Below are positions 16,190 through 34,810 of a stretch of DNA of 64,000 nt, piece after piece. Where the stretch lies: the NCBI RefSeq assembly GCF_013337045.2, contig NZ_CP118259.1, positions 248,001-312,000 of the forward strand, in the 5' to 3' direction. Made by a program: the position numbers and the translations under genes. The notes under the pieces are model-generated. The model was given only the letters and a program-made list of their open reading frames with translations, searched no databases and had not been told where the DNA came from. Position 1 is the first letter of the stretch; every line of letters begins with the position of its first letter. The stretch is from Agrobacterium vitis. GTDB taxonomy: Bacteria > Pseudomonadota > Alphaproteobacteria > Rhizobiales > Rhizobiaceae.

Positions 16190-16250
16190 AGCCACATCGC
16201 CCCTGGAAATAGAGGGTTTATAAACCATAGAGCAGCGTGTTTGCCCATTG

Positions 16251-16271
16251 CGCCCCATCGTGGGCGTTTTT
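16251..16271 (+). terminator. Terminator after fliP
   Basis: CGCCC (16251-16255) pairs with GGGCG (16262-16266), followed by five T residues. It ends the flgB-fliP operon and separates it from the first flagellin gene. Confidence 0.7.
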
Positions 16272-16393
16272 GGCGTTGTTCATGTTTCTTTAACCACTCC
16301 TGTTGAGCTAACCTTAAAGCCGTGCGTGGTTATGTGCTGATTAGAGGCGAGTTAAACAAACTCTAGTTAATTGACATGATGTCGATCGCTTCT

Positions 16394-16446
16394 GCCGGTA
16401 TATAGTCCGGCATGTCCCTCTTTTGTATTGTGTAACCACAGGGACA
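16394..16446 (+). promoter_or_regulatory. Structured leader of flagellin gene 1
   Basis: Hairpin P1: GCCGG (16394-16398) with CCGGC (16407-16411). Hairpin P2: TGTCCCT (16413-16419) is perfectly complementary to AGGGACA (16440-16446), which holds the ribosome site 6 bases before ATG 16453. A CATGAT box lies 19 bases before P1. The same design recurs before all five flagellin genes. Confidence 0.65.
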
Positions 16447-16452
16447 GATCTG

Positions 16453-17412
16453 ATGACAAGCATCATGACCAACAATTCGGCCATTTCGGCACTTTCCACT
16501 CTGCGCTCGATCAGCACGCAGATGGAGGACACGCAGAGCGCAATTTCGTCCGGCTACAAGGTCAAGGACGCCTCCGACAACGCGGCCTATTGGTCGATTG
16601 CCACAACCATGCGCTCCGACAACAAAGCGATGTCTGCGGTGCAGGACGCACTCGGCGTCGGTGCTGCCAAGACGGATACGGCCTATACCGGCATGGAAGC
16701 CGCTATCGATGTCGTCTCCGACATCAAGGCCAAGCTGGTTGCTGCCCGCGAACCAGGCGTGGACAAGGACAAGATCAACAAGGAACTGACCGAGCTGAAG
16801 AACCAGCTGGGTTCTGTTGCCAAGTCCGCGTCGTTCAATGGCGAGAACTGGCTGTATGACAACAGCGAAACCGCTGGCACGACCCAGGAAATGGTCGGCT
16901 CTTTCGTTCGTGGTTCCGATGGCAATGTGTCGATCAAGACGATCTCCTTTGATACGACCAACTCGATCCTGATCAATGACGAGGCGGCTGCTGGTGGTCT
17001 GCTGACCAAGGACACCCTTGCGACTTACGCCTATGGTACAACGACGACAACCGCTTCCTATTACCTGATTTCCTCAGTTGCAGGGGATGCGACCAGCAAC
17101 GAAGTGACGCTGACCTCAACGACCAGCGACGACGAGATTGACGGCATGGTTGCCTCGGTCGATAAGATGTTGTCCAGCATGACGGATGCTGCCGCTACGA
17201 TTGGTGCGACCAAGAGCCGGATCGAATCTCAGTCCAGCTTTGCGAAAGACCTCAGCGATACGATCGATGTCGGTATCGGCAAGCTCGTGGATGCGGACAT
17301 GAACGAGGAATCGACAAAGCTGAAGGCGCTGCAGACGCAGCAGCAGCTTGGCATACAGGCGCTGTCAATTGCCAACTCCAGCACAGAGAATGTCTTGTCG
17401 CTCTTCCGTTAA
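16453..17412 (+). CDS. Flagellin 1
   Basis: 319 residues. Flagellins are exported and polymerise into the filament. Conserved D0/D1 N terminus (MTSIMTNNSAISALSTLRSI ... SSGYKVKDASDNAAYWSIAT) and C terminus (ADMNEESTKLKALQTQQQLG, then IQALSIANSSTENVLSLFR). A short variable domain is typical of rhizobial 'complex' flagella. The start at 16453 is supported by AGGGA 6 bases upstream and by alignment with the other four copies. An upstream in-frame ATG (16423) would put the leader hairpin inside the coding region. The middle (about residues 85-250) is almost identical to copies 2-4. The C-terminal 65 residues differ (SRIESQSSFAKDLSDTIDVG). Probably the flaA position. Confidence 0.96.
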   Translation: MTSIMTNNSAISALSTLRSISTQMEDTQSAISSGYKVKDASDNAAYWSIATTMRSDNKAMSAVQDALGVGAAKTDTAYTGMEAAIDVVSDIKAKLVAAREPGVDKDKINKELTELKNQLGSVAKSASFNGENWLYDNSETAGTTQEMVGSFVRGSDGNVSIKTISFDTTNSILINDEAAAGGLLTKDTLATYAYGTTTTTASYYLISSVAGDATSNEVTLTSTTSDDEIDGMVASVDKMLSSMTDAAATIGATKSRIESQSSFAKDLSDTIDVGIGKLVDADMNEESTKLKALQTQQQLGIQALSIANSSTENVLSLFR

Positions 17413-17439
17413 AAGGCAATATAGATACATCAAGAGAAG

Positions 17440-17467
17440 AGGCCGGACTCCAAGTCCGGCCTTTTTT
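17440..17467 (+). terminator. Terminator of flagellin gene 1
   Basis: AGGCCGGACT pairs exactly with AGTCCGGCCT (10 bp, 3-base loop), followed by a T run. The gene is therefore transcribed on its own. Confidence 0.9.
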
Positions 17468-17645
17468 AATTTTCCGTTAAATTAATTATGTATTAACTAA
17501 GTAAAATTTGAATTGATTCATTTAAATTAACCGACAAATTCTTTATTAGGATATTTTTAACTATATTTGATTTAAAACAGGCTATCGAAATCGGCAGGTT
17601 AACCTGTTAATTGAATGTTAATCGCATGAGGCGAGCCGAATTTCA

Positions 17646-17692
17646 CCGGGAATAGCCCGGAATGTCCCTTCCTATGTGTCATTCAAGGGGCA
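17646..17692 (+). promoter_or_regulatory. Structured leader of flagellin gene 2
   Basis: P1: CCGGG (17646-17650) with CCCGG (17656-17660), loop AATAG. P2: TGTCCCTT (17663-17670) with AAGGGGCA (17685-17692), the latter carrying the ribosome site before ATG 17699. Stem P1 differs from copy 1 but still pairs. A CATGAGGC box lies 21 bases before P1. Confidence 0.65.
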
Positions 17693-17698
17693 AGGCCT

Positions 17699-18658
17699 AT
17701 GACGAGTATTATGACGAACACTGCTGCGATTTCAGCACTTTCCACGCTGCGGTCGATCAGCTCCGATATGGAGACCACCCAGAGCCGGATTTCCTCCGGT
17801 TATAAGGTCGAGAGCGCGTCTGACAACGCGGCCTATTGGTCGATTGCCACGACAATGCGTTCGGATAACAAGGCGCTTGGTGCTGTTGAGGACGCCATCG
17901 GCCTTGGTGCTGCCAAGACGGATACGGCCTCTACCGGCATGGAATCGGCGATCAGTGTCGTCTCCGACATCAAGGCCAAGCTGGTTGCTGCCCGCGAACC
18001 AGGCGTGGACAAGGAAAAGATCAACAAGGAACTCGCTGAGCTGAAGAACCAGCTGGGTTCTGTTGCCAAGTCCGCGTCGTTCAATGGCGAGAACTGGCTC
18101 TATGACAACAGCGATACCACTGGTACGACCCAGGAAATGGTCGGCTCTTTCGTTCGTGGTTCCGATGGCAATGTGTCGATCAAGACGATCTCCTTTGATA
18201 CGACCAACTCGATCCTGATCAATGACGAGGCGGCTGCTGGTGGTTTGCTGACCAAGGACACCCTTGCGACTTACGCCTATGGTACAACGACGACAACCGC
18301 TTCCTATTACCTGATTTCCTCGGTTGCAGGGGATGCGACCAGCAACGAAGTGACGCTGACCTCAACGACCAGCGACGACGAGATTGACGGCATGGTTGCC
18401 TCGGTCGATAAGATGTTGTCCAGCATGACGGATGCTGCTGCCACCATCGGTGCGACGACTTCGCGTCTGAAGTTGCAGGATAGCTTCATCAAGGACCTGA
18501 GCGACACGATCGACACGGGTGTGGGCCGTCTGGTGGATGCGGACATGAACGAGGAATCGACCAAGCTGAAGGCGCTGCAGACGCAGCAGCAGCTTGGCAT
18601 CCAGTCCCTGTCGATTGCCAACTCCAGCTCCGAGAATGTTATGTCGCTGTTCCGTTAA
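17699..18658 (+). CDS. Flagellin 2
   Basis: 319 residues, with the N- and C-terminal polymerisation domains of flagellin. N terminus MTSIMTNTAAISALSTLRSI SDMETTQSRISS-type sequence is almost identical to copy 3. The C-terminal part (ATTSRLKLQDSFIKDLSDTI, then DTGVGRLVDADMNEE) is shared with copies 3 and 4. Small differences: residues ASTGMESAISVV at about 80-92 and a final ENVMSLFR in place of ENVLSLFR. Ribosome site AAGGGG lies 8 bases before the ATG, inside a predicted hairpin. It has its own leader and terminator. Confidence 0.96.
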   Translation: MTSIMTNTAAISALSTLRSISSDMETTQSRISSGYKVESASDNAAYWSIATTMRSDNKALGAVEDAIGLGAAKTDTASTGMESAISVVSDIKAKLVAAREPGVDKEKINKELAELKNQLGSVAKSASFNGENWLYDNSDTTGTTQEMVGSFVRGSDGNVSIKTISFDTTNSILINDEAAAGGLLTKDTLATYAYGTTTTTASYYLISSVAGDATSNEVTLTSTTSDDEIDGMVASVDKMLSSMTDAAATIGATTSRLKLQDSFIKDLSDTIDTGVGRLVDADMNEESTKLKALQTQQQLGIQSLSIANSSSENVMSLFR

Positions 18659-18687
18659 GGATCCAATTCCACAGCATGGACACTTTT

Positions 18688-18715
18688 ATAGCCGGGTGAT
18701 GAGCCCGGCTATTTT
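18688..18715 (+). terminator. Terminator of flagellin gene 2
   Basis: ATAGCCGGG pairs with CCCGGCTAT (9 bp, 7-base loop), followed by TTTG and TTTT. Confidence 0.88.
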
Positions 18716-18990
18716 GTTTTCCTGATCCGCAATGTGCCGCTGTACGATTTTGGATTGCACCTGATTCCGATCAAACAGCCATATGAAGCCCTCGGCCATG
18801 GCCGTACTTTTGAATAGAATTCCGGTTGCTGGCTATCGTTAAACGAATCATCATTTCATAAAATTTTTTGAATAATTTTTTCTCGTGATTTAGCAAGAAT
18901 TAACCTAACTCGTTTTAAATAGAAACATCAAAACGACGGATTAATCTCTTGTTTAAAAAGATTAATGGCATGAAGCGGAGCCGTCGTTCG

Positions 18991-19040
18991 CCGGGAAGGA
19001 GCCCGGGATGTCCCTTCCGTTTCCAGTTCCATAAGGGGCA
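18991..19040 (+). promoter_or_regulatory. Structured leader of flagellin gene 3
   Basis: P1: CCGGG (18991-18995) with CCCGG (19002-19006). P2: TGTCCCTT (19009-19016) with AAGGGGCA (19033-19040), which covers the ribosome site of ATG 19047. A CATGAAGC box lies 22 bases before P1. Confidence 0.65.
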
Positions 19041-19046
19041 ACGCCT

Positions 19047-20006
19047 ATGACAAGTATTATGACGAACACTGCTGCGATTTCAGCACTTTCCACGCTGCGG
19101 TCGATCAGCTCCGATATGGAGACCACCCAGAGCCGGATTTCCTCCGGTTATAAGGTCGAGAGCGCGTCTGACAACGCGGCCTATTGGTCGATTGCCACGA
19201 CAATGCGTTCGGATAACAAGGCGCTTGGTGCTGTTGAGGACGCCATCGGCCTTGGTGCTGCCAAGACGGATACGGCCTATACCGGCATGGAAGCCGCTAT
19301 CGATGTCGTCTCCGACATCAAGGCCAAGCTGGTTGCTGCCCGCGAACCAGGCGTGGACAAGGACAAGATCAACAAGGAGCTGACCGAGCTGAAGAACCAG
19401 CTGGGTTCTGTTGCCAAGTCCGCGTCGTTCAATGGCGAGAACTGGCTGTATGACAACAGCGAAACCGCTGGCACGACCCAGGAAATGGTCGGCTCTTTCG
19501 TTCGTGGTTCCGATGGCAATGTGTCGATCAAGACGATCTCCTTTGATACGACCAACTCGATCCTGATCAATGATGAGGCGGCTGCTGGTGGTCTGCTGAC
19601 CAAGGACACCCTTGCGACTTACGCCTATGGTACAACGACGACAACCGCTTCCTATTACCTGATTTCCTCGGTTGCAGGGGATGCGACCAGCAACGAAGTG
19701 ACGCTGACCTCAACGACCAGCGACGACGAGATTGACGGCATGGTTGCCTCGGTCGATAAGATGTTGTCCAGCATGACGGATGCTGCTGCCACCATCGGTG
19801 CGACGACTTCGCGTCTGAAGTTGCAGGATAGCTTCATCAAGGACCTGAGCGACACGATCGACACGGGTGTGGGCCGTCTGGTGGATGCGGACATGAACGA
19901 GGAATCGACCAAGCTGAAGGCGCTGCAGACGCAGCAGCAGCTTGGCATCCAGTCCCTGTCGATTGCCAACTCCAGCTCCGAAAACGTGCTGTCGCTGTTC
20001 CGTTAA
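19047..20006 (+). CDS. Flagellin 3, apparent mosaic of copies 1 and 2
   Basis: 319 residues, a full flagellin. The first 80 or so residues and the last 65 match copy 2. The segment around residues 80-145 (AYTGMEAAIDVV, KDKINKELTELKNQ, NSETAGTTQEM) matches copy 1, including silent bases, pointing to gene conversion between the tandem copies. The strong ribosome site AAGGGGCA lies 6 bases before the ATG and the gene has its own leader and terminator, so it should be expressed independently. Confidence 0.96.
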   Translation: MTSIMTNTAAISALSTLRSISSDMETTQSRISSGYKVESASDNAAYWSIATTMRSDNKALGAVEDAIGLGAAKTDTAYTGMEAAIDVVSDIKAKLVAAREPGVDKDKINKELTELKNQLGSVAKSASFNGENWLYDNSETAGTTQEMVGSFVRGSDGNVSIKTISFDTTNSILINDEAAAGGLLTKDTLATYAYGTTTTTASYYLISSVAGDATSNEVTLTSTTSDDEIDGMVASVDKMLSSMTDAAATIGATTSRLKLQDSFIKDLSDTIDTGVGRLVDADMNEESTKLKALQTQQQLGIQSLSIANSSSENVLSLFR

Positions 20007-20035
20007 GCCTAGGGACGTCGAGAATCACCAAATGC

Positions 20036-20065
20036 ATAGCCGGGCGAAAGCCCGGCTATTTTTTT
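20036..20065 (+). terminator. Terminator of flagellin gene 3
   Basis: ATAGCCGGGC pairs with GCCCGGCTAT around a GAAA tetraloop and is followed by seven T residues: a textbook intrinsic terminator. Confidence 0.93.
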
Positions 20066-20365
20066 ATCCTGTTAGCAAAAAGCACCTTGGGGGACGTCTT
20101 ATCGATTATGCTGGTTCAGGGAATGACGAAGTTTCATTCATCGTGGGAATAATCCAAACTGTATTTCAAGTGATTGATAAATAAAGAAAATTAAATTTCC
20201 CTATGATGGGAATGGCAGGCGCAAGCCTGCACAGCTTCCTCGCTGTATGGTTAATATTTTTTCAAATTTATGTTTCGTTAACCATGCTGGTGTTTTCTGT
20301 GTTCACGAAAGCACTGGGCCGGACCAGCAGATAGAGATCCGGCGGGCATGAAGCCGACCAATGTT

Positions 20366-20416
20366 GCCGGTCTTAATCCGGCCTGTCCCTTTCCAAAGCA
20401 ATCACCTCAAGGGGCA
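20366..20416 (+). promoter_or_regulatory. Structured leader of flagellin gene 4
   Basis: P1: GCCGG (20366-20370) with CCGGC (20378-20382). P2: TGTCCCTT (20384-20391) with AAGGGGCA (20409-20416), containing the ribosome site of ATG 20422. A CATGAAGC box lies 19 bases before P1. The upstream 410-base gap is otherwise AT-rich with no gene. Confidence 0.65.
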
Positions 20417-20421
20417 CCTTT

Positions 20422-21381
20422 ATGACGAGCTTGATGACAAATACCGCTGCGATTTCAGCACTTTCGACCCTGCGGTCGATCTCCGACGACATGAACTCGA
20501 CACAGAACAGAGTTTCGTCCGGCTACAAGGTTGAAAATGCATCTGACAACGCGGCCTATTGGTCGATTGCCACAACCATGCGTTCGGATAACAAGGCGCT
20601 TGGTGCCGTTGAGGACGCCATCGGCCTTGGTGCTGCCAAGACGGATACGGCTTATACCGGCATGGAATCGGCGATCGATGTCGTTACCGACATCAAGGCC
20701 AAGCTGGTTGCTGCCCGCGAACCAGGCGTGGACAAGGAAAAGATCAACAAGGAATTGGTCGAGCTGAAGAACCAGCTGGGTTCTGTTGCCAAGTCCGCGT
20801 CGTTCAATGGCGAGAACTGGCTGTATGACAACAGCGAAACCACTGGCACGACCCAGGAAATGGTCGGCTCTTTCGTTCGTGGTTCCGATGGCAACGTGTC
20901 GATCAAGACGATCTCCTTTGATACGACCAACTCGATCCTGATCAATGACGAGGCGGCTGCTGGTGGTCTGCTGACCAAGGACACCCTTGCGACTTACGCC
21001 TATGGTACAACGACGACAACCGCTTCCTATTACCTGATTTCCTCGGTTGCAGGGGATGCGACCAGCAACGAAGTGACGCTGACCTCGTCCACCACGGACG
21101 ACGAGATTGACGGCATGGTTGCCTCGGTCGATAAGATGCTCTCGAACATGACGGATGCTGCTGCCACCATCGGCGCGACGACTTCGCGTCTGAAGTTGCA
21201 GGATAGCTTCATCAAGGACCTGAGCGACACGATCGACACGGGTGTGGGCCGTTTGGTGGATGCGGACATGAACGAGGAATCGACAAAGCTGAAGGCGCTG
21301 CAGACGCAGCAGCAGCTTGGCATCCAGTCCCTGTCGATTGCCAACTCCAACTCCGAAAACGTGTTGTCGCTGTTCAAATAA
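20422..21381 (+). CDS. Flagellin 4
   Basis: 319 residues. The middle and C-terminal parts are close to copies 2 and 3. The N terminus differs slightly (MTSLMTNTAAISALSTLRSI, then SDDMNSTQNRVSS), and the last residues are SNSENVLSLFK. It carries both conserved polymerisation domains and no frameshift. Ribosome site AAGGGGCA lies just before the ATG within the leader hairpin. Own terminator downstream. Confidence 0.96.
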   Translation: MTSLMTNTAAISALSTLRSISDDMNSTQNRVSSGYKVENASDNAAYWSIATTMRSDNKALGAVEDAIGLGAAKTDTAYTGMESAIDVVTDIKAKLVAAREPGVDKEKINKELVELKNQLGSVAKSASFNGENWLYDNSETTGTTQEMVGSFVRGSDGNVSIKTISFDTTNSILINDEAAAGGLLTKDTLATYAYGTTTTTASYYLISSVAGDATSNEVTLTSSTTDDEIDGMVASVDKMLSNMTDAAATIGATTSRLKLQDSFIKDLSDTIDTGVGRLVDADMNEESTKLKALQTQQQLGIQSLSIANSNSENVLSLFK

Positions 21382-21534
21382 TACGGGGCTTGAAGGCGCT
21401 TACGCCTTTATTCTCAAAAAGTATAAAACTCCAAGCCGCAACAATGGCTTGGAGTTCTCAGAACGCCAGAGGCGACTGCCGTTGGGAGACCGAAAATGGT
21501 TCTTGCCCGATGTGTTGGACCCACGATGCTTATC

Positions 21535-21563
21535 AAAGCCGCAGCACCCGCTGCGGCTTTTTT
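21535..21563 (+). terminator. Terminator of flagellin gene 4
   Basis: AAAGCCGCAGC pairs with GCTGCGGCTTT over the loop ACCC, followed by TTT. A second perfect hairpin (AACTCCAAGCC with GGCTTGGAGTT, 21427-21456) without a U-tract lies nearer the gene. Confidence 0.9.
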
Positions 21564-21736
21564 CATGCGCGTTTTTCTTTGGTCTTGAAAAAATTAGGAA
21601 TTCGTTTAGACCTATTAAAACTTTGATACCTGAGTTAACCATTTGTTAACTAATTCAGGGTTAATAATCTGTTAACAACGTTGGGTTGGCTACCAGGGCA
21701 AGAGCGTAGCCGACGTGCATGATGCAGACCAGCGTT

Positions 21737-21784
21737 GCCGGTGTCTTCCATAAATCCGGCATGTCCCTTCACCTTCATGGGGCA
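21737..21784 (+). promoter_or_regulatory. Structured leader of flagellin gene 5
   Basis: P1: GCCGG (21737-21741) with CCGGC (21756-21760), a longer loop than in the other copies. P2: TGTCCC (21762-21767) with GGGGCA (21779-21784), the ribosome site of ATG 21789. A CATGATGC box lies 19 bases before P1. Confidence 0.6.
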
Positions 21785-21788
21785 CTCT

Positions 21789-22751
21789 ATGACCAGCATT
21801 ATGACCAATACCTCCGCTATGGCGGCTTTGCAGACCCTCCGTGGCATCGACCAGAACATGGAGACGACGCAGAATAGAATTTCGTCCGGTTACAAAGTCG
21901 ACAGCGCCAAGGATAATGCCGCCTATTGGTCGATTGCGACCACGATGCGCTCGGATAACAAAGCGCTTTCCACGGTTCAGGATGCTCTGGGGCTTGCTGC
22001 TTCAAAAGCAGATACCGCTTATACTGGTCTGGATTCCAGTATTGACGTGCTCAGCTCCATCAAGTCCAAACTGGTTGCGGCGCGCGAACCGGGCGTGGAC
22101 AAGGACAAGATCAACCAGGAAATCAACGAGCTGAAGAACCAGCTCGCCTCCATTGCCGAATCCGCTTCATTCTCCGGCGAAAACTGGTTGTATAACGAAT
22201 CGACCAATCCTCCCACCACCAAGGAAATGGTCGCCTCCTTCAACCGCGCCAGCGATGGTACGGTGTCGGTTACCACATTGAAGTTCAACACGTCCGAATC
22301 GACCCTGATCGATACTCAGAATGCTGAAAACGGCATCCTGACACGGACCACGACTGCGACCTGGGCATACGGTACGACCACCACGACAGGCACCTATTAC
22401 CTGCTGGACGCGGATTCGGTGACGCCTGCCACCGGCACCGAAATCACCCTGACCACCGACATGTCCAACGACGATCTCGATGGCATGATTTCGGCCGTCG
22501 ACAAAATGCTTCAGGATCTGACCGATTCTGCTTCGACCTTGGGTGCGATCAGCAGCCGTATCGAATCCCAGGATACGTTCGTTAAAAACCTCAGCGATAC
22601 GATCGACAAGGGCGTCGGACGTCTGGTGGATGCAGATATGAACGAGGAATCCACCAAGATCAAGGCACTGCAAACGCAGCAGCAACTTGGCATCCAGGCG
22701 CTGTCGATTGCCAATACCAATGCCGAAAACATCCTGACGCTCTTCAAGTAG
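21789..22751 (+). CDS. Flagellin 5, the most diverged copy
   Basis: 320 residues. N terminus MTSIMTNTSAMAALQTLRGI and C terminus ALSIANTNAENILTLFK are flagellin D0 domains. The centre differs from copies 1-4 (for example YNESTNPPTTKEMVASFNRA and TTATWAYGTTTTTGTYYLLD). It has therefore escaped the homogenisation seen in the first four. The start is set by alignment with the other flagellins and by GGGGCA 5 bases upstream. An earlier in-frame ATG at 21735 lies within the leader hairpins and is rejected. Confidence 0.95.
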   Translation: MTSIMTNTSAMAALQTLRGIDQNMETTQNRISSGYKVDSAKDNAAYWSIATTMRSDNKALSTVQDALGLAASKADTAYTGLDSSIDVLSSIKSKLVAAREPGVDKDKINQEINELKNQLASIAESASFSGENWLYNESTNPPTTKEMVASFNRASDGTVSVTTLKFNTSESTLIDTQNAENGILTRTTTATWAYGTTTTTGTYYLLDADSVTPATGTEITLTTDMSNDDLDGMISAVDKMLQDLTDSASTLGAISSRIESQDTFVKNLSDTIDKGVGRLVDADMNEESTKIKALQTQQQLGIQALSIANTNAENILTLFK

Positions 22752-34016: not shown

Positions 34017-34364
34017 ATGTACCAGTTTTCCTACAATGAGATTATGGAGGATGGGGTTGCCGACGCTAAGGAGCGTGAGCGCCAGGTTCTCGACAGATCG
34101 ATAGACTTGCTGAGCCAGGCCAGGACTGCCGGAAAATACGGTCGTGAAGGCATTGAGGCTCTTTACTACACGCGCCGCGTCTGGATCCGCTTCATTGAGG
34201 ATCTCAAGCAGCCGGACAACCAGCTTGGCACGGAACTTCGAGCCAATCTCATTTCAATTGCCCTTTGGATATTGAAGGAATGTGACCGCATCAGAAAGCG
34301 GGAATCCGACAATTACCAAGGCATAATCGATGTAACCACCATCATCAGGGATGGACTTAAATGA
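34017..34364 (+). CDS. flaF: Flagellin biosynthesis regulator FlaF
   Basis: 115 residues, the size of alphaproteobacterial FlaF. Helical: [20 protein letters not shown], with [20 protein letters not shown] and [20 protein letters not shown] as family blocks. FlaF acts with FlbT in the control of flagellin synthesis; in Caulobacter it is needed for flagellin production. Ribosome site AGAGGAAA lies before the ATG. The stop overlaps the flbT start (ATGA), so the two are made together. Confidence 0.93.
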
Positions 34365-34810
34365 AGAGCACCTTGCGAATCTCGCTGAAATCCGGGGAAC
34401 GAATCTTTATCAATGGTGCCGTTTTGCGCGTCGATCGGAAGGTTGCCCTCGAATTCTTGAACGATGTGACCTTTCTGCTGGAAAACCATGTGCTCCAGCC
34501 GGAAGACGCCAATACCCCGCTACGCCAGCTCTATTTCATCGCCCAGATGATTCTCATCAATCCGGAAGGCAAGGAACAGACGCTGACCATGTTCCGCAAG
34601 TCGATCGTGATGTTGCTCTCCTGCTTCCATGATGACGAGATCCTGGCTGAATTGAAGCGGATCGACGCCCAGGTGGTATCAGGGCGCGCCTTCGATGCGT
34701 TGAAGGCCATTCGCGGTCTTTATCCGCTCGAGGATAGAATCCTGAACAACCAGGAAATGGCACCGGCAACCATCGAACAGATCCGCAAGGAGATCGCACC
34801 ATGGCGGTAG
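34361..34810 (+). CDS. flbT: Flagellin mRNA regulator FlbT
   Basis: 149 residues. Family blocks [20 protein letters not shown] and [20 protein letters not shown] ([10 protein letters not shown]). In Caulobacter crescentus FlbT binds the 5' leader of flagellin mRNA and couples flagellin translation to assembly. In Brucella it acts positively on flagellin. The five structured flagellin leaders in this window are candidate targets; that is my inference. Translation is coupled to flaF upstream, and flgD starts within its last 10 bases. Confidence 0.94.

Follow-up and report, generated by a model that had tools for sequence, protein, structure and literature searches.

The system closest to the one described here is that of the fljK flagellin leader of Caulobacter and the protein FlbT, on which Anderson and Gober reportedly published in 2000. 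The present analysis concerns a stretch of 64,000 nucleotides (nt) of the Agrobacterium vitis genome (contig NZ_CP118259.1, positions 248,001 to 312,000; the whole of it is called the window below), in which five flagellin genes are each preceded by a leader RNA. In the fljK system, FlbT controls the leader post-transcriptionally. The leader described here likewise forms the 5′ part of a flagellin mRNA, is structured and covers the Shine-Dalgarno (SD) sequence, and genes for FlbT and FlaF are present, with the sign of control probably being opposite here. Published accounts are cited in this text by PMC number, from excerpts of each paper. In one of these, a 2015 review, the action of FlbT on flagellin mRNA was listed as unresolved, its sign in Caulobacter being opposite to that in Brucella (PMC4347634). 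In Brucella, FlbT is required for FliC and FlaF represses it (PMC8781033), while the lateral flagellins LafA1 and LafA2 of Bradyrhizobium diazoefficiens are described as translationally induced by FlbT (PMC8429497), and flbT and flaF were among the genes hit in a motility screen of A. fabrum (PMC9812332). Two types of flagella have been distinguished in Rhizobiales, one subpolar and one lateral, of which the Rhizobiaceae have only the latter (PMC6406911). Flagellin translation is also gated by a small post-transcriptional regulator in the CsrA/FliW systems of Bacillus and Campylobacter, to which FlaF/FlbT has been suggested to be analogous (PMC4894983). Unlike the simple hairpins of CsrA/FliW targets, the leader described here contains a junction, and comparison of FlbT with CsrA using hhalign gave a probability of 3%, with CsrA absent among the best 50 of 188 matches listed.

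Another RNA proposed to act in cis on flagellar genes of Rhizobiales is flg-Rhizobiales (RF01736; Weinberg 2010, PMC2864571), which like the leader has stem-loops and an SD sequence of the GGGG type. Membership of this family was considered and rejected, as no match in the window reached the curated score of 55 bits and both consensus and fold differed. When the alignments were compared by eye, RF01736 showed UUGGGAGA loops and a hairpin inside the coding start, and it precedes a gene beginning MENMLLVGLSRQM whereas the leader precedes flagellins. The gene with this beginning is presumably flgF-like. The RF01736 model gave no matches in the genome of the window or in the 10 family genomes searched; in the same search it matched 36 of 249 order genomes, seven of them over its cut-off. 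It should be added that sub-threshold matches of 29–54 bits (L070–L081) were found in the other 29 order genomes, so the RF01736 model may be too narrow. Rfam scans at gathering scores gave no match in the window or in seven relatives, and a scan of 16200–22000 at E ≤ 10 returned 11 matches, all below the cut-offs and none on a leader. No account of this flagellin leader was among the matches listed in the open-licence literature.

Each of the five window leaders fits one five-helix fold, in which a stem PA encloses the hairpins P-1 and P0 and is followed by P1 and then P2. PA is a long-range stem, its 5′ arm preceding P-1 and its 3′ arm following P0 and abutting P1. The CATGA box is the loop of P0, and the 3′ arm of P2 is the SD sequence. 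A first-pass annotation of the window had reported a CATGA box, hairpin P1, TGTCCC(T/TT), a spacer of 11–20 nt and AGGGACA or (AA)GGGGCA before the flagellins, and all of these were found before all five genes, with the last box ending 4–6 nt 5′ of the ATG. Its description of two hairpins was an undercount; P1 and P2 are two of the five helices, the CATGA box forms a separate hairpin, and farther upstream P-1 and the 5′ arm of PA had gone unseen. The flagellin ATGs lie at 16453, 17699, 19047, 20422 and 21789, and the leaders (bit scores from covariance model R2, see below) and genes are as follows:

16334..16455, + strand: leader RNA of flagellin gene 1, to the ATG (79.2 bits); PA 16343-16350/16386-16393, P-1 16350-16372, P0 16373-16383, P1 16394-16411, P2 16413-16419/16440-16446
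17577..17701, + strand: leader RNA of flagellin gene 2 (56.0 bits, the lowest score among the window leaders); PA 17587-17594/17636-17644 (imperfect), P-1 17597-17623, P0 17623-17633, P1 17646-17660, P2 17663-17670/17685-17692
18923..19049, + strand: leader RNA of flagellin gene 3 (76.5 bits); PA 18932-18939/18981-18988, P-1 18940-18966, P0 18968-18976, P1 18991-19006, P2 19009-19016/19033-19040
20301..20424, + strand: leader RNA of flagellin gene 4 (85.3 bits); PA 20310-20317/20358-20365 (one mismatch), P-1 20318-20343, P0 20345-20355, P1 20366-20382, P2 20384-20391/20409-20416
21668..21791, + strand: leader RNA of flagellin gene 5 (88.4 bits); PA 21677-21684/21729-21736, P-1 21685-21714 (loop contains CCAGGGCAAG), P0 21716-21726, P1 21737-21760, P2 21762-21767/21779-21784
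16453..17412, + strand: flagellin gene 1 (open reading frame (ORF); alignment A1)
17699..18658, + strand: flagellin gene 2 (ORF; alignment A1)
19047..20006, + strand: flagellin gene 3 (ORF; alignment A1)
20422..21381, + strand: flagellin gene 4 (ORF; alignment A1)
21789..22751, + strand: flagellin gene 5 (ORF; alignment A1)

To obtain related leaders, the five window flagellins were scanned against species genomes, and the best 80 matches fell in 69 named loci, mostly of Rhizobiaceae genera and their relatives, with the best match in Agrobacterium vitis NCPPB 3554 (99% identical). Within these loci and the window, tblastn located 234 flagellin starts, 223 of which had a leader that was distinct and 100 nt or longer. 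The motif CATGANG was present in 218 of the 223, at 65–106 nt 5′ of the ATG. The bases flanking the box form a standard pair in 217 of these 218 leaders (G-C 181, A-T 22, G-T 13 and T-A 1, with a single A-G), and the CATGA box is therefore the hairpin P0 with the loop AUGAN; the second pair outwards forms in 161. A pattern search of the same 218 leaders found a P1-like element in 212, the 5′ arm of P2 in 209 and the SD arm in 213.

RNAalifold applied to a MAFFT alignment recovered P0 and P2 only, which is ascribed to misalignment of the variable arms, and the model R1 built from it was left unused. The further helices were named by hand from the sequences and tested afterwards. For PA, the pairing score in 210 of the 218 leaders was 14.08 for native arms and 10.93 ± 0.17 for arms swapped between loci, with helices of at least 6 bp in 51% and 25%, respectively. 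Stems of at least 6 bp were formed at P-1 in 80.5% of leaders, compared with 38.3% after dinucleotide shuffling and 38.8% in DNA farther upstream. Using the sequence-only alignment A3 of 46 diverse leaders, the top four column pairs by corrected mutual information comprised three in PA and one in P-1. In the same 46 leaders, from which the helices had partly been drawn, 83.4% of cells in the five helices were paired (74.3 ± 0.7% in shuffles, 33.9–45.1% with partners slid), 169 cells were changed on both sides (67.5 ± 9.5 in shuffles), and the covariation score was 0.348 against 0.198 ± 0.010 in shuffles, none of 500 of which equalled it, and 0.085–0.138 with partners slid. A stricter null, in which the tree and the substitutions on each branch were kept over 30 replicates, was applied to 100 non-seed leaders with similarities below 0.90 to the seeds and among themselves; these had been found by the model, which favours the fold, and were then realigned without it by sequence only. 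This covariation check, run with a custom script in place of the R-scape analysis that had been proposed, gave four base pairs with E < 0.05, each of them belonging to PA, and thus left the structured leader unrefuted.

The first-pass annotation had based its case for covariation on P1. Its stems are present as described, GCCGG/CCGGC in genes 1, 4 and 5 and CCGGG/CCCGG in genes 2 and 3, but the covariation within the window is weak because the five stems share a CCGG...CCGG core and differ mainly by register, the two versions being set apart by a single G-C pair, outer in one and inner in the other. Over the 46 leaders the four core pairs of P1 are almost invariant, and the closing pair is changed on both sides in 14 leaders, is standard but lacks such a change in 17 and is non-standard in the other 15. 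The P1 argument is thus the weakest part of that case, and the conclusion of a structured leader survives on PA and P0.

The covariance model R2 was built from 46 seed leaders, window leaders 1–5 included, and its E-values are rough. In the window it gave exactly five matches (56.0–88.4 bits), which are the five flagellin leaders, and six in the whole genome at E ≤ 0.001, the sixth with 31.7 bits. Under the same threshold and strict filters, matches were found in 154 of 199 family genomes and 55 of 249 order genomes. At E ≤ 0.01 with strict filters, nine of 385 class genomes had matches, seven of which lay outside the order with 20–28 bits and showed no flagellin by tblastn in the fetched stretches of ~3 kb; for the comparison with Caulobacter, which is perhaps not among these 385 genomes, no convincing match to the modelled fold was accordingly obtained outside the order. 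In ten loci chosen from the 69, a match was found at 45 of 48 flagellin starts, and all but one of the 46 matches end at such a start. A further 123 matches were examined in fetched loci, of which 112 precede a flagellin-like ORF (110 ending exactly at the start codon), six precede chemoreceptor or chemoreceptor-like genes, four lie too near the end of the stretch for an ORF and one (L168) is doubtful.

Three flagellin-like genes in RNA-bearing clusters (L014:2452, L031:4928 and L048:15915) have no element match at their start, with a weak match of 17.9 bits lying somewhat upstream in L031. These genes could possibly serve as natural controls for flagellin made without the element.

The six chemoreceptor loci were recognised by Pfam (L156, L157 and L158) or by eye (L087, L155 and L160). 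The sixth match in the genome of the window is L087 (C1:3160645-3160777, minus strand), and the chemoreceptor-like gene that follows it resembles a protoglobin-MCP, as judged by eye from its likeness to L156, which is a protoglobin-MCP by Pfam. At L087, L155 and L156, each with a chemoreceptor-like gene downstream, PA, P0 and P1 are kept and P2 was not seen. These leaders point to a modular element and may represent a second output mode. The 3′ part of the leader is also altered before flagellins at L127:293 and L170.

Ensemble folding of 206 of the 218 leaders agreed with the earlier proposal that the SD sequence is the 3′ arm of P2. The SD bases are paired to the 5′ arm of P2 (UGUCCC) with a median probability of 0.97 (mean 0.82; above 0.8 in 157 leaders), so that off is the predicted default state. 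Mean SD accessibility was predicted at 0.05 and rose to 0.27 when the 5′ arm of P2 was barred from pairing. The cis-acting, SD-masking leader proposed in the first-pass annotation thus gains strong support from covariation outside the seeds, wide distribution and ensemble folding, and the fold together with its predicted SD masking is well supported.

In the window, the candidate protein partners of the leader are encoded at:

34017..34364, + strand: FlaF gene, candidate antagonist (Pfam PF07309, E 6e-34)
34361..34810, + strand: FlbT gene, candidate leader binder (Pfam PF07378, E 1.2e-42; co-occurrence with the RNA)

FlbT (PF07378) was detected in 175 of 249 order genomes and, by hand count, in 53 of the 55 that bear the RNA; the other two are G113, which is 86% complete, and G150, whose RNA match is the doubtful L168. 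FlbT subtypes were counted in 144 genomes among the matches listed, with 15 RNA-bearing genomes outside those matches left out and the long type defined as a match of 369 nt or more. The RNA was present in 31 of 37 genomes with a long-type FlbT and in 9 of 107 with the short type only, six of these nine having a second FlbT beyond the matches listed. The two types are 19–27% identical (alignment A5), as is the window FlbT to the short types aligned. In five genomes with both types (G035, G143, G236, G237 and G239) the RNA lies 12–13 kb from the long-type gene, as it does in the window, and in G035 two RNA matches precede tandem flagellins that are taken to be lafA1 and lafA2 of a Bradyrhizobium. 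The leader and RF01736 occur together in five genomes, with RF01736 lying ~21 kb (G035) and ~10 kb (G236) from the short-type gene. We infer that FlbT is the binder of the leader, a role supported by the RNA following one FlbT subtype and by the review passage on LafA1/LafA2 (PMC8429497).

The best reading of these data, to which a probability of about 0.55 is given, is that the leader is a translational OFF switch opened by lateral-type FlbT. Transcription would start just upstream of PA, and the flagellin mRNA would begin with a folded leader of ~120–130 nt. The junction, with PA around P-1 and P0 and the near-invariant AUGAN loop, would act together with hairpin P1 as a recognition module, directly 3′ of which P2 would pair UGUCCC(U) with the SD sequence and hold translation off by default in the cell. 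Lateral-type FlbT would recognise the junction/P1 module, most likely at the AUGAN loop, and open P2, an activating sign that is presumed for this species, and translation of flagellins, and in some species of chemoreceptors, would depend on FlbT being present and unhindered. An activator opening P2 is the best fit to the lateral-type data.

Several points weigh against this reading. At the level of the fold, base pairs with two-sided change numbered 18 in the 46 leaders, and 89 of 500 shuffles reach 18. The strict tree-based null passes PA only, with E of 0.17 for the P1 closing pair, 0.57 for P0 and 2.8 for the best P2 pair. PA is accordingly established by the strict test, and P0, P1, P2 and P-1 rest on weaker tests and near invariance. 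Minimum-energy folds, the energies of which take no account of proteins or of cotranscriptional folding, contain PA in genes 1, 2 and 5 only, P2 in genes 1, 2, 4 and 5, and neither in gene 3. The long/short split of FlbT was chosen after the data had been viewed, and the co-occurrence of FlbT subtype and RNA may reflect no more than joint transmission of the lateral-type gene cluster as a whole. Caulobacter FlbT, finally, is described as a translational repressor acting together with FljJ (PMC7591256), and its binding as promoting flagellin mRNA decay (PMC4347634). These two accounts also speak for a variant in which the same SD-masking leader is bound in its closed form by FlbT, acting by itself or together with a flagellin partner, and is repressed until secretion of the partner brings relief. 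This variant is considered rather improbable, as FlbT is reported to be an activator for lateral flagellins (PMC8429497) and in Brucella (PMC8781033), the window FlbT is distant from the short types as noted above, and a repressor seems unnecessary because the leader is predicted to be closed unaided.

That the leader responds to a factor other than FlbT, such as a small molecule (as in a riboswitch), temperature, a small RNA, an RNase or a ribosomal factor, is unlikely but is a serious candidate. Many of the order genomes with FlbT lack the RNA, and riboswitches also make use of a junction joined to an SD hairpin; on the other side, the element is almost confined to flagellin and chemoreceptor genes, follows one FlbT subtype and matches no Rfam family. 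Very little weight is given to the repeats being DNA elements of class III promoters, that is operators for Rem, CtrA or the like. The sequences CCGG...CCGG and CATGATG do look palindromic, and 120 upstream sequences contain 18 places at which TTAA-N7-TTAA, which we take to be a CtrA-like motif, begins 15–55 nt 5′ of PA. A start-site study of S. meliloti places CtrA motifs at flaA, flaC and flaD (PMC3616915). The promoter search 5′ of PA gave weak signals only and fixed no transcription start. Operators would not be expected from a P1 loop that ranges from 3 to 21 nt in the pattern search, frequent G-U pairs (26 of 46 leaders have U-G as the third pair of P2), compensatory changes in a long-range stem around two hairpins and a 3′ helix that includes the SD sequence. 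It is just as improbable that the similarity reflects descent only, with recently duplicated flagellins, and leaders of related species, carrying a fold without function. The flagellins are indeed tandem paralogues, with coding blocks of genes 2 and 3 up to 100% identical, but the five leaders share just 41–73% pairwise identity, PA stays significant when the null preserves both the tree and the substitutions, and PA arms exchanged between loci pair worse than native ones. The earlier statement that the leaders sit in otherwise diverged intergenic DNA holds in part, as the leader is more alike than the DNA at −250..−130 in 7 of 10 gene pairs, while plain identity (35–55% for that upstream DNA) only partly agrees.

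Compared with the protein of flagellin gene 1, those of genes 2–4 are 88–92% identical and that of gene 5 is 66% identical. Within genes 1–4 (16453–21381), mid-coding blocks of 150 nt are up to 99–100% identical while the leaders differ, and the 5′ coding end of gene 1 is 75–81% identical to those of genes 2–4. This block pattern looks like gene conversion, as judged from the sequences.

Two further candidates were examined and rejected. Long-range pairing of the CATGA box with coding sequence appears with codons 4–5 in the minimum-energy folds of genes 1, 4 and 5, and pairing with codons 2–9 was found in 105 of the 218 leaders (mean of 7 with shuffled coding ends); it fails in over half, compared with local P0 pairing in 217 of the 218, and the excess is ascribed to the codons that encode the common MTSxMTN start. 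It may be an extra contact in some genes. An upstream ORF starting from the AUG of the P0 loop was also considered. In 216 leaders, the three frames that it can take with respect to the flagellin occur 83, 69 and 64 times, and the frame is therefore under no constraint, although its stop overlaps the flagellin start in 34 leaders.

A further motif was detected in the P-1 region, where GGGCA is present in 38 of 218 leaders (shuffle mean 8.4, maximum 16 in 50 runs) and AGGGCAA in 32. An SD arm of TGGGGC accompanies it in 24 of these 38 leaders, compared with 11 of the 180 others, an association that may reflect shared descent because the leaders look like one orthologous group, that of gene 5. 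In this group (21685–21714 in the window, and relatives) the AGGGCAA loop repeats the sequence of the leader's own SD arm, and the P-1 loop could compete with the SD arm for UGUCCC. A bolder and doubtful extension would make the junction and P1 the portable receptor of lateral-type FlbT, joining flagellins and chemoreceptors in one translational regulon with swappable 3′ outputs. The P-1 loop of the gene-5 group would then take up UGUCCC in place of the SD sequence and form a true two-state switch, and FlbT would combine a head that binds RNA with a helical tail that senses flagellin and is predicted to be weakly FliS-like.

The presence of a conserved fold before flagellin genes and some chemoreceptor genes in many rhizobia makes translational control of flagellin directly testable. 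If the proposed reading is true, the named helices, the near-invariant loop and the SD lock would provide exact targets for mutation in well-studied rhizobia, and the covariance model would mark lateral-type flagellar systems across an order. Chemoreceptors would then also be tied to flagellins at the level of translation.

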